This document shows, one piece after another, positions 11,497 to 22,161 of a stretch of 32,977 nt of DNA. The translations under genes were made by a program, and so were the position numbers. The first letter of the stretch is position 1. Every line of letters starts with the position of its first letter. A model generated the notes under the pieces. The model did not search any database, was not told the origin of the DNA, and worked only from the letters and a program-made list of their open reading frames with translations. Source of the DNA: Tissierellales bacterium (GTDB taxonomy: Bacteria > Bacillota > Clostridia > Tissierellales > JAOAQY01); NCBI GenBank assembly GCA_025210965.1, contig JAOAQY010000145.1, forward strand, positions 1 to 32,977, written 5' to 3'.

Positions 11497-13443
11497 CTAC
11501 TTTATATCCTTATTCCATCTCCCGTTTGCCTTTGAATCCTTGAGCTTATCAAACTCCTCTTTAACATTTTTTATTCTTCCTTTTTCAACTCTTCGCTCAA
11601 ACCTTCTCTCTTCCCACGATTCAAAAATTTGATCCATATCATATCCTAATGGATAAAGCATATCTTTTTTAAATTTCAATTTTATTCGGCTTATATGTTC
11701 TTTGTAGTACTTTTTTGTTCTATCATTAAATAATACAACATTACCGTATTCATCTGGTCCATCATAAAAAATTACTTCCCATGATCTTTTTAAATCATTA
11801 ACTCTATCTCCTCTATCAAACTTCTCATATGTTTTTTTAGCTTTATTTTTCTTGTTTTTCTTATTTCTATGCTCAAGCTTTATATCCTCTTCAAATTCAC
11901 TTACCATAACTTTCATGTTTTTACTATACAACTTTGCTTTTTTCAAAACCTTTGGTTCTAATTTTAGCTGCTCTGATATCCAAAAAGCCTGACTTTCTCC
12001 ACTCTTTCCGATTTCCAATTTGTATTTTGGTTTCAATGTTTCAGGATCAAATGACATTCTTGCATTTTCAAATCCTATACACTTTTCACTAAAATCTTTA
12101 ATTTCCCCATAATGTGTTGTAACTAATGTAAGCGCACCCTTCTCATAAAGTCTCTCAAGTATTGCTATTCCAAGAGCAGAACCTTCTTTAGGGTCAGTCC
12201 CTGTTCCTATCTCATCACTCAAAATTAATACTCCTGGCCTAGCTTTATTTACTATTTCTACTAACCTCTTCATATGCCCTGAAAAAGTACTAAGCGATGT
12301 TTGTATATTCTGTGCATCCCCTATATCTACCAATATATCTTCTAACACCGTATATTGACTATTCTTAGAAGATGGTGGCAATAAGCCTGATTGTACCATC
12401 AATTGTAAAAGCCCGACTGTTTTTAACACTACAGTTTTACCACCGGTATTAGGGCCTGTAATAACCAGTGTTCTATATTGATTACCTATACTAAGATTTA
12501 ATGGCACAACACTACCCTCTATAAGCGGATGTTTCCCATCTTCTATCATTATATATTCATTTTCAGTCAATGTAGGTTCTTCTGCCTTTATACTTATAGC
12601 ATACTTAGCTTTAGCATATATAAAATCAAATGTTGCGAATGCTTCTACATTTAACTCTATAGCTTTTACATTTTCAATTACAAAACCTGTTAAAAATGAT
12701 AATATTTGATATACAATTTCCTGTTCTTGTCCCTCTACATTCTCTAATTCTAAATTGTATTTCATTATTGATTTTGGTTCTACAAACAAAGTTGAACCGC
12801 TAGATGACTTTTCTATAACTTCACCTTCTACCTTATTTTTATAAATCGATTTTACTAAAAGCACCCTATGTCCTTTTTTTATTGTAGAATAATGCTCTTG
12901 AAGATATGGCTCCCAGTTTTTATTTGTCAAAAGATTCATCATTTTTTGCTCAATTTTTGAATATAATTGGCTTTTTTGAATTCTTAACTTCTGCAGTTTA
13001 CTATCTGCTTCATCTCTAACTCCTTTACTACAAATCATATCTTCTATCGCTTCTTCTAAATTACTCATTTCAGCTATAGATAAAGCATATTTAGACAAAA
13101 TCGGTGAATAAGTTTCTATTTTCGCCATCTTCTGTTTAAACAATCGAGATCCTCTTATAAAATCAGATATTTTAAGCAATTCATCTGGTAATAGAACACT
13201 TCCTTTTTCAGCTTTTTCTAATAATGGAGATATATCGTATATGCCATATAAATTAGGTGCTAGTCCATTTTCTATTAAATATTTAGCTTCTGAAACCTCA
13301 CTCAGCCTTATTTTTATAGCATCTAATTTCTTGTAAAATCTAATATCCTCAACTCTTTTTTTCCCTAATTTACTTTGGGTATATTCCTTGATATTTTCTT
13401 TAATTTTTTCAAATTCTAATAATTTCTGTACATTTTCATTCAT
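11497..13443 (-). CDS. MutS2-like ABC ATPase lacking the Smr domain
   Basis: A 648-residue protein related to MutS2, the MutS paralog that acts on recombination intermediates and, in Bacillus, on collided ribosomes. The N-terminal helical core is followed by the MutS-type ATPase: Walker A GPNTGGKT at 330-337, the STFSGHM signature at 385-391, Walker B ILSDEIG at 407-413 and the TTHYGE switch near 442. Normal MutS2 proteins are about 780 residues and end with KOW and Smr nuclease domains. Here the ATPase is followed by a Lys-rich linker (525-540), a short FDRGDRV segment that may be a reduced KOW-like fold, and a basic tail, with no Smr. Only 98 bases separate the stop from the next gene, so the missing domain is not simply frameshifted away. 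The start has AGGAGGATTTAGAA before it. Confidence 0.85.
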   Translation of the reverse strand: MNENVQKLLEFEKIKENIKEYTQSKLGKKRVEDIRFYKKLDAIKIRLSEVSEAKYLIENGLAPNLYGIYDISPLLEKAEKGSVLLPDELLKISDFIRGSRLFKQKMAKIETYSPILSKYALSIAEMSNLEEAIEDMICSKGVRDEADSKLQKLRIQKSQLYSKIEQKMMNLLTNKNWEPYLQEHYSTIKKGHRVLLVKSIYKNKVEGEVIEKSSSGSTLFVEPKSIMKYNLELENVEGQEQEIVYQILSFLTGFVIENVKAIELNVEAFATFDFIYAKAKYAISIKAEEPTLTENEYIMIEDGKHPLIEGSVVPLNLSIGNQYRTLVITGPNTGGKTVVLKTVGLLQLMVQSGLLPPSSKNSQYTVLEDILVDIGDAQNIQTSLSTFSGHMKRLVEIVNKARPGVLILSDEIGTGTDPKEGSALGIAILERLYEKGALTLVTTHYGEIKDFSEKCIGFENARMSFDPETLKPKYKLEIGKSGESQAFWISEQLKLEPKVLKKAKLYSKNMKVMVSEFEEDIKLEHRNKKNKKNKAKKTYEKFDRGDRVNDLKRSWEVIFYDGPDEYGNVVLFNDRTKKYYKEHISRIKLKFKKDMLYPLGYDMDQIFESWEERRFERRVEKGRIKNVKEEFDKLKDSKANGRWNKDIK

Positions 13444-13502
13444 TTCTAAATCCTCCTTTTTGAGTTGATTTAAAAACTTTCCAATCAAGATAATCAATAA
13501 AA

Positions 13503-13530
13503 TAAAAAAAGCACCTACATAGGCACTCCA
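13503..13530 (-). terminator. Intrinsic terminator inside the leader of the MutS2-like gene
   Basis: On the minus strand AGTGCCTA-TG-TAGGTGCT forms a stem with two G-U pairs, followed immediately by T7. It lies 60 bases upstream of the MutS2-like start codon and about 220 bases downstream of the leader promoter, with no annotated gene in between, so it is placed as an attenuator. Confidence 0.7.
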
Positions 13531-13723
13531 TCATAAAATTCAGCTCTAAATTATATCGAAATATAATAAACCACAAAGCCGTTCTATAAATGTAAAAAAA
13601 TCGCAACGAGAAAGTTCCTAATCAACCAATAAATGGGCACAAAAAACACACGTCAAAATACATAGTTTCAACTACTGCCCACAAATCATAAACTTTTTTT
13701 GATTATAAAACTATTCCTCGCAT
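13531..13723 (-). promoter_or_regulatory. Structured leader with tiny ORF upstream of the MutS2-like gene
   Basis: This stretch has no ordinary gene. On the minus strand an AAGGAG site precedes ATG at 13721-13723, opening a six-codon frame (MRGIVL, stop at 13703-13705). Downstream are a stem GTGGGCA / TGCCCAT (13676-13682 with 13633-13639) enclosing TAGT-TGAA-ACTA, and a hairpin TTATAT-TTCG-ATATAA (13551-13566), flanked by GGCTTT / AGAGCT. The attenuator hairpin follows. I recognise no known riboswitch or T-box consensus. Leader-peptide attenuation is the inference; structure and reading frame are seen directly. Confidence 0.5.
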
Positions 13724-13754
13724 AAATCTCCTTATTAATTACATTGTTTTTTTC

Positions 13755-13783
13755 ATAGTAACAAAAATTTTTTTATATGTCAA
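13755..13783 (-). promoter_or_regulatory. Promoter of the MutS2-like leader transcript
   Basis: On the minus strand TTGACA (13778-13783) and TACTAT (13755-13760) are 17 bases apart. The predicted start is near 13748, giving a leader of about 300 nt before the MutS2-like gene. The -35 overlaps one arm of the large palindrome. Confidence 0.75.
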
Positions 13784-13824
13784 TTAAGTTCTACAAATTC
13801 CTTTAAATTTGTGGAACTTAATTG
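13781..13824. promoter_or_regulatory. 44-bp near-perfect palindrome between divergent promoters (candidate operator)
   Basis: Two 19-base arms, 13781-13799 and 13806-13824, are reverse complements with one mismatch and are separated by six bases. The arms begin CAATTAAGTT and end AACTTAATTG. The outer ends overlap the -35 boxes of both divergent promoters symmetrically. It lies upstream of both expected transcription starts, so it works as DNA, most likely as the binding site of the adjacent MerR-type protein. That assignment is inferred. Confidence 0.7.
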
Positions 13825-13851
13825 ATTTCTATTATATACTTATACTATAAG
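13822..13851 (+). promoter_or_regulatory. Promoter of the MerR-methyltransferase fusion gene
   Basis: TTGATT (13822-13827) and TATAAG (13846-13851) have an 18-base spacer, slightly long as in many MerR-controlled promoters. A GAGGGGGG ribosome binding site at about 13868-13875 precedes the TTG start. Confidence 0.55.
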
Positions 13852-13881: not shown

Positions 13882-15132
13882 TTGAAAATCGGTAAATTTG
13901 CAGCAAAGCACGGTATTTCTATAGATACTGTTCGACATTATATGAACCTCGGACTTCTCTTTCCAGAAAAAATGGGCGGTTGGTATGAATTCGGAGACAA
14001 TTGTAATGAATCCATAGATGCCATTTTGCATTATAAAGAAATGGGCTTTTCTCTTGATGAAATTCACGAACTACTAAATTTCCAACGTTTTAGTCGTTTG
14101 ACCATAAAAACTGATTTAGAATTTTTCAAAAGTAAATTTCTTTCAAAAACTAAGGATTTAGAAGTTGAAATGGAACATCTAGAACACAAATTACGAGTTA
14201 TTTCAAATCTTCTTGATAAAATAGACCATCTTGAAGAATCAAAATTTCCAACTCATGCAACTGGTGTACCTTTAGATTTTTTAAATGCCCTTCAATGTCC
14301 TATTTGTAAAAAAAACTTTGATCTTACTCAAGCAAATATCGTTCACAATATGATTACTCATGGTGAATTAAAATGTGATTGTGGAAATCATTGGCAAATC
14401 GTGCATGGTATACTAGCAGAAAAACACCTATCTGATAAATTTGTAAATCTTTCTTCTGAAGAAGTCATTGAACGAAACATTCATTTGAAAACAGATTACT
14501 ACAAATCTACAAGTAGTAAATTTCTAGATTTTATATTTCAAGGTGTCGAATGGCAAAGACAAAGATTGATAGATTTATTAACTCCAAATTCTATAATACT
14601 AGAACCTGGAATTGGGCTTGGTATTGCTCTTAGTAATTTCTATGATTATCTACCTGATGATATGAGGTATATTGGAGTAGATGATCAATTTGAAAGATTA
14701 CTTTTTGTAAAAACTCTATTTGATAGGGAATATAATCCTAAAAGGCTAATGTACATATGTTGCTCTTTTGATCACATTCCTTTAAAACCAGATAGTGTTG
14801 ATTTTGTAATGGATTATAAAGGCAGTTTCGATTATAATTCCCAACATGATATTTGGCTTACTGAAAACCTCAAGACATTGTTAAAAGACGGTGCTCACTG
14901 GATTGGAAGTTTCTTATTTTACTCTAAACAAAGTGAACTAATGAATTATCCTGAAAGTATTAGACGAGTGCTAGACTTAAAAAACATCCAAGAAGATTTT
15001 AAAAATCATGCGATGGAAGTCGAACTTCAAAAGATTATAGGGCCTGTTGATGAATCAGGTAAAACCGAAATATTTAAAAATGGATTGTCCTTGTATCAAT
15101 GGCTGATGCTAGGAAAAAATGAAAAAGCATAG
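13882..15132 (+). CDS. MerR regulator fused to zinc-ribbon SAM methyltransferase
   Basis: A 416-residue fusion. Residues 1-70 are a MerR winged-helix domain (KIGKFAAKHGISIDTVRHY opening, a shortened YEFGDN wing and an EMGFSLDEIHELL helix). Residues 75-118 form the usual coiled coil for dimerisation. A zinc ribbon follows with C139, C142, C165 and C167, similar to the one in RlmA or Trm112-like proteins. Residues 195-416 form a Rossmann methyltransferase with the SAM motif LEPGIGLGIAL (240-250) and an acidic GVDD near 267. The start codon is TTG, supported by a strong GAGGGGGG site; no better ATG exists. The methyltransferase part may be an enzyme or a sensor; substrate unknown. It is divergent from the MutS2-like gene and likely controls both through the palindrome. 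Confidence 0.8.
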   Translation: MKIGKFAAKHGISIDTVRHYMNLGLLFPEKMGGWYEFGDNCNESIDAILHYKEMGFSLDEIHELLNFQRFSRLTIKTDLEFFKSKFLSKTKDLEVEMEHLEHKLRVISNLLDKIDHLEESKFPTHATGVPLDFLNALQCPICKKNFDLTQANIVHNMITHGELKCDCGNHWQIVHGILAEKHLSDKFVNLSSEEVIERNIHLKTDYYKSTSSKFLDFIFQGVEWQRQRLIDLLTPNSIILEPGIGLGIALSNFYDYLPDDMRYIGVDDQFERLLFVKTLFDREYNPKRLMYICCSFDHIPLKPDSVDFVMDYKGSFDYNSQHDIWLTENLKTLLKDGAHWIGSFLFYSKQSELMNYPESIRRVLDLKNIQEDFKNHAMEVELQKIIGPVDESGKTEIFKNGLSLYQWLMLGKNEKA

Positions 15133-20483: not shown

Positions 20484-20652
20484 GGATGAAAATAGCGGGA
20501 GAGTGACAACTGTCCACCGAAGAAGCAAATCTTTCAGGTACGCCGTTTAGGCTAGGGACCGCTATTGGACGAACCTCTGGAGAGACTTTTTAAAGCACCG
20601 ACGGGGCAAGGCTTAGGCTGAAACTCTCAGGTAAAAGGACAGAGTGACCAAA
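20484..20652 (+). promoter_or_regulatory. Tandem glycine riboswitch
   Basis: Two glycine aptamers are recognisable. The first is closed by AATAGCGG (20491-20498) and CCGCTATT (20559-20566) and holds GGGAGAG, CACCGAAGAAGCAA and TTTCAGGTA. The second is closed by CTCTG / CAGAG and holds GGAGAG, GCACCGACGGGGCAAG, GAAACTCTCAGG and AAAAGGACAGAG (to about 20645). These are the conserved elements of the glycine riboswitch, here controlling an amino-acid symporter. No intrinsic terminator follows before the start codon, which points to control of translation. Confidence 0.95.
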
Positions 20653-20784: not shown

Positions 20785-22161
20785 ATGGAAAATTTAGTAA
20801 CATTCTTGGACAAATTAGACGGATTGGTATGGGGACCACCACTACTATTACTTTTAGTTGGAACAGGTCTTTATCTCACAATTCGCCTCAAATGCATTCA
20901 AATCACCAAATTACCCTTTGCTCTAAAAGCACTTTTTTCCAAAGACAATGATGGATCTGGTGATGTTTCTAGTTTCGCTGCACTTTGCACTGCACTAGCT
21001 GCAACCATTGGTACTGGAAACATAGTTGGTGTAGCAACTGCCATAAAAGCTGGTGGACCTGGAGCTCTATTTTGGATGTGGATTGCTGCATTTTTCGGCA
21101 TGGCTACAAAATACGGCGAATCACTTCTTGCTGTAAAATATAGGGTAACTGACGAAAATGGTGAAATGTCTGGTGGACCAATGTACTATATCGAAAGAGG
21201 TCTTGGAAATAAATGGTTGGCAAAAACATTTGCTTTTTTTGGAGTTGGTGTAGCTTTTTTTGGAATTGGTACTTTTGCACAAGTAAATGCCATATCAGCA
21301 GCAACTCAAATTAGCTTTGGTATAAAACCTACTATTACAATAATTGCTATTACAGTGTTGGTAGCACTTGTGACTTTTGGTGGTATAAAAAGCATTTCAA
21401 AAGTTGCTGAAACTTTAGTTCCTTTTATGGCTACATTTTACTTTATTGGAGCTCTTATAATATTGGTTCTGAACTATGATAGAATACTGGACACTTTTGC
21501 ACTGATTTTCCAAAGTGCTTTTTCGCCAACATCTGCGATGGGTGGATTTCTTGGAGCAACAGTCTCAATGGCCATTAGAAACGGTATTGCTCGAGGTGTT
21601 TTTTCAAATGAATCTGGTCTTGGTAGCGCTCCTATTGCCGCTGCAGCTGCGAAAACAAATTCTTGTGTAAAGCAAGGACTAGTATCTATGACTGGAACAT
21701 TTTTTGATACTATAATAATATGTACGATGACCGGACTAGTATTATTGCTATCTGGTGTATGGACGGATGCCTCTCTACAAGGTGCAGCTCTTACAAATGC
21801 TGCCTTTAATTCTGGATTGGACTTCCACAATATTGGACAATATATAGTCACTATAGGTCTTATATTTTTCGCTTTTACCACTATACTCGGTTGGAATTAT
21901 TACGGTGAAAAATGCTGTGAATATCTATTCGGTATAAAAAGTATAACTCTCTATAAATGGATATTTATAATACTTATTTTTAGTAATTTAGTGGTGCAAC
22001 ATTTTGATTTAAGTGTAATATGGATAACTGCTGATATAGTAAATGGACTTATGGCTATTCCAAATCTAATCGGTATTTTGGGACTTAGTTCTGTCATTAT
22101 ATCTGAAACAAAAATGTATTTTGATTCTTTATATAATAACTCTAACACCAAAATATCTTAG
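20785..22161 (+). CDS. Sodium:alanine/glycine symporter, AGCS family (paralog 2, riboswitch-controlled)
   Basis: A 458-residue AGCS transporter with about ten membrane helices. Signatures are LAATIGTGNIVGVATAI followed by GGPGALFWMW, and VFSNESGLGSAPIAAAAA near residue 280. It is clearly paralogous to the protein at 70-1455, and of the same length. Control by a tandem glycine riboswitch makes glycine, or alanine with glycine as signal, the likely substrate. AGGAGG precedes the ATG by eight bases. The gene is alone on its transcript and ends at a long terminator. Confidence 0.95.
   Translation: MENLVTFLDKLDGLVWGPPLLLLLVGTGLYLTIRLKCIQITKLPFALKALFSKDNDGSGDVSSFAALCTALAATIGTGNIVGVATAIKAGGPGALFWMWIAAFFGMATKYGESLLAVKYRVTDENGEMSGGPMYYIERGLGNKWLAKTFAFFGVGVAFFGIGTFAQVNAISAATQISFGIKPTITIIAITVLVALVTFGGIKSISKVAETLVPFMATFYFIGALIILVLNYDRILDTFALIFQSAFSPTSAMGGFLGATVSMAIRNGIARGVFSNESGLGSAPIAAAAAKTNSCVKQGLVSMTGTFFDTIIICTMTGLVLLLSGVWTDASLQGAALTNAAFNSGLDFHNIGQYIVTIGLIFFAFTTILGWNYYGEKCCEYLFGIKSITLYKWIFIILIFSNLVVQHFDLSVIWITADIVNGLMAIPNLIGILGLSSVIISETKMYFDSLYNNSNTKIS

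Follow-up and report, generated by a model that had tools for sequence, protein, structure and literature searches.

A probable leader-peptide transcription attenuator upstream of SMR-less MutS2-type ATPase genes in Clostridia and Bacilli

Background

Why should an intrinsic terminator stand between a promoter and the start of a gene for a MutS2-type ATPase? The question is raised by a leader on the minus strand of a Tissierellales bacterium contig (assembly GCA_025210965.1, contig JAOAQY010000145.1, positions 1-32,977 of the forward strand), the whole stretch of which, 32,977 nt, was analyzed and is referred to below as the window. Bacteria resist drugs that target the ribosome by means of rRNA methylases, ABC-F proteins, and HflXr, and the induction of these factors proceeds via attenuators that contain a short upstream open reading frame (uORF). 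Canonical MutS2 is an ATPase-driven splitting factor for stalled ribosomes, to which it is recruited by its KOW and SMR domains, and the loss of mutS2 sensitizes Bacillus subtilis to chloramphenicol, tetracycline, and erythromycin (PMC10897456). In the open-access literature that was searched, uORF attenuators were found on genes of several kinds, among them ABC-F, HflXr, and Erm-type genes, and none was reported on a MutS2-type gene. What appears to be new is not the regulatory principle, which is known, but its deployment on a separate clade of MutS2 proteins.

Results and discussion

Organization of the leader

The leader region (13783-13444, minus strand) contains, in this order, a promoter, a Shine-Dalgarno (SD) sequence, a six-codon ORF, an intrinsic terminator, and the ribosome-binding site (RBS) of the gene. 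The initial annotation had listed these elements together with several possible hairpins, and all of them are present on the minus strand. The promoter TTGACA-N17-TACTAT (13755..13783; 10/12 in a consensus scan) is composed of a -35 box, TTGACA (13783-13778), and a -10 box, TACTAT (13760-13755), which is preceded by TG and separated from the former by a 17-nt spacer; the leader transcript is expected to start near 13748. The promoter alone proves little, since such consensus matches are equally common in shuffled sequence (25 observed vs 24.7).

The SD sequence AAGGAG (13728..13733, minus strand) precedes the leader ORF ATG-CGA-GGA-ATA-GTT-TTA-TAA (13703..13723), which encodes MRGIVL-stop and, together with adjoining bases, constitutes segment 1 (13721-13699). 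Further downstream on the same strand, the minimum-energy fold places a hairpin (13632..13682) in the loop that separates segment 1 from segment 2 (13606..13625), the latter being defined by duplex and constrained folding and by co-variation among relatives. A second hairpin in the folds (13533..13591) forms the apex of the predicted antiterminator and resembles SL-2 of vmlR in its position (PMC9226507). The intrinsic terminator (13504..13529) consists of segment 3 (GGAGTGCCT) and segment 4 (AGGTGCTTT), which form a stem-loop at 13529-13508, followed by a T7 tract at 13510-13504. The SD sequence of the main gene, AGGAGG (13452..13457), and its ATG start at 13443 complete the arrangement. As a whole, the 309-nt leader folds more stably than 100/100 of its dinucleotide shuffles (z = -3.3). 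No Rfam family matches the leader at gathering scores; PhrS, at 13.9 bits against a threshold of 37, was rejected as a chance match.

A distinct clade of MutS2-type ATPases

The gene downstream of the leader (11497..13443, minus strand) encodes a protein of 648 residues, which had been described as a MutS2-like ATPase. That it is of the MutS2 type was upheld by profile, fold, and phylogeny, whereas an assignment to canonical MutS2 was not: the protein belongs to a separate, short clade devoid of the SMR domain. It scores 567 bits against TIGR01069 (mutS2; cut-off 400) and covers only positions 1-548 of the 790 in that profile, and a canonical MutS2 of 790 residues is encoded elsewhere in the same genome (G000:C57). 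A scan of the genome contigs recovered mostly canonical MutS2; members of the short clade (about 625-656 residues) were found in 31/249 genomes of the order and in 18/391 genomes sampled from the class, the genome of the window included. In an unrooted tree of 61 proteins, the short clade and ten canonical MutS2 proteins lie on opposite sides of one branch with a support of 100/100.

Profile comparison aligns the lever, clamp, ATPase, and KOW-like domain with those of canonical MutS2, while the coiled coil is shortened; the identity to clostridial canonical MutS2 is 38% in the profile alignment. The KOW-like domain (residues about 539-587) aligns with canonical residues 641-687, is recovered at 96% by hhalign of the tail only, and appears as a beta domain in the structural model. 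The protein ends approximately 60 residues beyond this domain. No Pfam match to the SMR domain was obtained for the window protein, and the domain is absent from 33/33 aligned members of the clade; the alignment shows a conserved tail LYPxxYD in its place, followed in many members by RGSKKALKK. The AlphaFold2 model (pLDDT 84.5) superimposes on B. subtilis MutS2 bound to collided ribosomes (7qv3) with Z 43.4 and 2.6 A over 503 residues. Predicted fold and sequence thus place the window protein with the ribosome-splitting MutS2 proteins. Compared with canonical B. subtilis MutS2 (PMC10897456; 7qv3, 8qpp), the lever/core, clamp, ABC ATPase, and KOW-like domain are common to both, whereas SMR and most of the coiled coil are missing from the window protein, which carries the LYPxxYD tail and falls into its own clade. 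Since SMR is one of the two parts by which MutS2 is recruited to collisions (PMC10897456), the target of the window protein may differ.

Neighboring features of the window

A near-perfect 20-bp inverted repeat (13779-13826, arms AATTAAGTTCYACAAATT) is located between the divergent promoters and touches the -35 box of the leader. Its exact arms occur nowhere else in the genome, and the repeat looks like a candidate operator. The divergent gene (13882-15132, plus strand) encodes a fusion of a MerR-type HTH domain, a Trm112-like zinc ribbon, and a methyltransferase, possibly an rRNA methylase. Homologs of this fusion were found in 16/100 genomes of the order, on contigs other than that of the MutS2-like gene where both occur (the genomes being drafts), and it was rejected as a conserved partner of that gene. 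An ordinary glycine riboswitch (RF00504, 61 bits; 20567-20652, plus strand) precedes a sodium:amino-acid symporter gene at 20785.

Conservation of the leader among relatives

The initial annotation had proposed a leader-peptide attenuator. A detector was applied to the 500 nt before each gene; it required an SD-led ORF of 3-30 codons and, downstream of this ORF, an intrinsic terminator at a distance of under 200 nt from the gene. The detector fires at 39/48 orthologous loci of the short clade and at 1/30 canonical mutS2 loci, as compared with 3/48 reverse-complemented regions and a mean of 5.7/48 shuffled regions; a stricter version gave 37/48, 1/30, 2/48, and 2.1/48, respectively. The reversed and shuffled controls weigh as much as the canonical genes, because the latter may have a smaller intergenic space. 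By inspection, the leader ORF is kept in the same position at 47/48 loci, the sole exception (L005) being truncated by a contig end; in four of the loci the uORF lies beyond the 500-nt limit (L019 and L020, MIEVVLN; L039, MSVGFLK; L040, MSVGFLQ). The canonical mutS2 genes are devoid of the leader that precedes the window gene.

The encoded peptides are short and variable. Besides MRGIVL in the window, they comprise MSEVVLN, MNEVVLN, MLEVVLNK, MSVKVLN, MSVFVLN, MSGVVLQ, MSESVSNQ, MLESVSNQ, MVRGFIQ, MSGVFSK, MSVVS, MSV, MSVY, MSILLG, and MSVLLVK. A leader ORF is also present in one further relative from Clostridia, Acetoanaerobium noterae (MSVIVLL), and in Bacilli: Paenibacillus sp. IHB B 3084 plasmid pHD01 (MSVNVLN), Cytobacillus spongiae (MLGVVLN), and P. 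cellulosilyticus (MTTGVLN). The exact pattern of the VLN leader, GTTCTTAACTAA ... TTAGTTAAGAAC at the right spacing, was found in 2/391 genomes, both times at a short MutS2-type gene. Within one family of leaders, f19, conservation is concentrated in the uORF core, segment 2, and the terminator arms, and much of the intervening sequence has diverged. The R/K-X-R/K arrest motif is absent from MRGIVL and from most leader peptides of the relatives, and MRGIVL was ruled out as a macrolide leader of the RLR type.

Several loci depart from the common layout. L018, L019, and L020 have double attenuators, in which the uORF and terminator are followed by another terminator and by an additional small ORF that begins with MLSV near the RBS of the gene. 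In L040 and L039, repeats (AATGCCACTCTAAGTTTCGT... and AACTTTCCTAAGCTG...) are located within the leader, in the interval between uORF and gene, 100-500 nt upstream. On the 115-kb Paenibacillus plasmid pHD01, the short MutS2-type gene (L087, 4001-5959) and the VLN leader before it are located close to an integrase gene, and for this reason the gene may travel.

Co-variation and folding of the alternative pairings

Every leader contains a segment complementary to its uORF, usually 55-105 nt past the stop codon of the latter. Duplex z-scores of single loci against shuffled downstream sequence are modest (mostly -0.6 to -2) and singly decide little, so swap tests with one row per distinct peptide were used instead. 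With shared ancestry not fully removed by this sampling, the uORF pairs better with its own segment 2 than with permuted ones (28 distinct peptides; z -8.0, 0/20,000), and segment 2 likewise prefers its own terminator 5' arm (z -4.6, 0/20,000 permutations), the arm of the window ranking first of 27. In the window, the duplex energies are -17.2 kcal/mol for segments 1:2 (the anti-antiterminator) and -11.1 kcal/mol for segments 2:3 (the antiterminator).

The effect of a ribosome on the uORF was modeled by masking: the transcript was ended at the terminator 5' arm, the uORF was made unavailable as it would be under a ribosome, and equal masks placed elsewhere served as control. Masking of the uORF raises the mean sequestration of the arm over 37 loci from 0.45 to 0.66, as compared with 0.46 under control masks, and the increase is seen in 34/36 loci having a control (Wilcoxon 2e-7). 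The results for the arm, by swap and by masking, are likely underestimates, because the strongest terminator was taken per locus; at loci with two terminators (L018, L048, and L059), regulation probably acts on the other one. For the window leader, arm sequestration rises from 0.39 to 0.72, and most of the arm bases 13528-13521 pair with 13612-13619 (p 0.6-0.76) only under masking; blocking the uORF in silico shifts the leader from the anti-antiterminator to the antiterminator. This switch is visible only in the transcript ended at the terminator 5' arm. In equilibrium folds of the complete leader the terminator was not melted by masking of the uORF and is stable in both states, hence the switch must decide during transcription, like that of vmlR.

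Together with the conservation of the leader across the family, the constrained folding and the co-variation that links the uORF, segment 2, and the terminator arm bear out the proposed attenuator. Very probably, the leader controls an inducible MutS2 paralog without SMR by ribosome-mediated attenuation of transcription.

Proposed mechanism and alternative explanations

From the anatomy of the leader and from the vmlR and hflXr systems, we infer the following order of events. In the uninduced state, ribosomes would finish and leave the six-codon uORF fast, the RNA of segment 1 would pair with segment 2 and segment 3 with segment 4, and the polymerase would halt before the gene. A ribosome stalled on the uORF would cover segment 1 and leave segment 2 available for pairing with segment 3 before segment 4 is synthesized; the terminator would then fail, and the gene would be transcribed. 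The MutS2-type product would clear or split the ribosomes whose stalling had induced it. This architecture points most naturally to stalled ribosomes as the putative inducing event, and ribosome clearing or splitting is the most likely activity, because the protein retains the parts with which canonical MutS2 acts on ribosomes, namely lever, clamp, ATPase, and KOW-like domain. We further infer that stalling is the signal, that an antibiotic or a similar translation inhibitor is the inducer, and that the product splits ribosomes.

The second type of leader bears on the level at which control is exerted. At L003, L007, L010, L011, and L054, the leader encodes peptides of 17-19 residues ending in VRxLN(K/R) (e.g., MLNKNYSNLLSVGVRRLNR), the coding end of which pairs with a strand about 25 nt past the stop codon, mostly without a terminator. 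The complement directly after the peptide and the usual lack of a terminator suggest translation attenuation at these five loci, and both layers of control operate in cplR (PMC10201436). Control that is mainly translational, in which stalling on the uORF would expose the RBS of the gene and the terminator would be secondary, is nevertheless unlikely, given that the RBS is preceded by a strong terminator in the window and in most relatives and that the 5' arm of this terminator alternatively pairs with segment 2.

A real switch could also sense a shortage of charged tRNA (e.g., Val, Leu, or Ile), as classical amino-acid attenuators do, and many of the peptides have V, L, or I near the stop codon (MRGIVL, MSEVVLN, MSGVVLQ, and MSVFVLN). 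However, the peptides contain no run of a single codon, no regulatory residue is common to MSESVSNQ, MVRGFIQ, MSV, and MSVY, and the target is an ATPase of a ribosome-acting type rather than a biosynthetic gene; we regard this explanation as very unlikely. As a further alternative, the leader could be an independent small RNA or a 5' remnant with its own terminator, the gene having a separate downstream promoter. This is highly improbable, since the promoter-like matches inside the leader occur at chance frequency, whereas uORF, segment 2, and terminator are retained as a set before the genes of the clade in Clostridia and Bacilli and were not found in combination before canonical mutS2.

A possible on-demand MutS2 paralog and its significance

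With transcription attenuation by a stalled ribosome as the preferred explanation, the likeliest reading of the product, by analogy, is a drug-inducible ribosome-splitting factor comparable to HflXr; it probably serves as an ATPase that is produced when needed and clears ribosomes, the MutS2 counterpart of HflXr. As dozens of distantly related bacteria share the switch before this gene, an unrecognized family induced by blocked protein synthesis (for instance, by antibiotics) is suggested. With moderate confidence, we propose a widespread and hitherto unrecognized family of drug-inducible ribosome-splitting ATPases ('MutS2r', by analogy with HflXr). Its members, which lack SMR and are present in Clostridia and Bacilli, would descend from MutS2 or form its sister group, and they would be governed by uORF attenuators that have a leader code of their own, often VLN-stop. 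What this code reports may be a stalling context that has yet to be described.

If this is true, MutS2-type ATPases would represent a further class of stalled-ribosome factors, the presence of two MutS2-like genes in many Clostridia would be explained, and the family would test whether MutS2 can function without SMR-based collision recognition. The natural leader variants, from MSV to MSESVSNQ, could be used for learning which codon contexts stall the ribosome.

Comparison with known attenuators

The sequence features of the vmlR and hflXr class, namely a short SD-led ORF near the 5' end, a terminator between this ORF and the main one, pairing of the uORF with a downstream segment, and pairing of that segment with a terminator arm, were all found in silico in the window leader. 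The closest comparison is the vmlR leader of B. subtilis, in which the uORF MIN is combined with an anti-antiterminator, an antiterminator, and a terminator, and for which induction by lincomycin and other inhibitors and the order of events were demonstrated experimentally (PMC9226507). Both leaders contain a short SD-led uORF within the anti-antiterminator, an antiterminator enclosing a hairpin, an intrinsic terminator, and an RBS downstream, and the logic predicted for the window is that of vmlR; the vmlR system differs in its ABC-F target, in its uORF, and in its proven induction, whereas the window has a MutS2-type target, the uORF MRGIVL, and a predicted induction.

In Listeria monocytogenes, hflXr (lmo0762) with rli80 is subject to uORF-dependent transcription attenuation, as shown experimentally (PMC6310831). 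The parallel lies in a paralog of a housekeeping ribosome-splitting factor placed under uORF attenuation, as proposed for the window gene; hflXr encodes an HflX-type GTPase and has a 14-residue leader peptide with the RLR macrolide motif, which MRGIVL and most of its relatives lack. The cplR leader of Clostridioides difficile, with the uORF MRI (PMC10201436), shares with the window a clostridial uORF attenuator with a terminator, but its target is an ABC-F gene and its terminator hairpin also hides the SD sequence, which in the window is located about 50 nt past the terminator. The MRI and MIN leaders were argued to suit inhibitors acting just past initiation (PMC10201436), and the short MSV-like uORFs of the present family would fit such inhibitors as well, by way of analogy rather than evidence.
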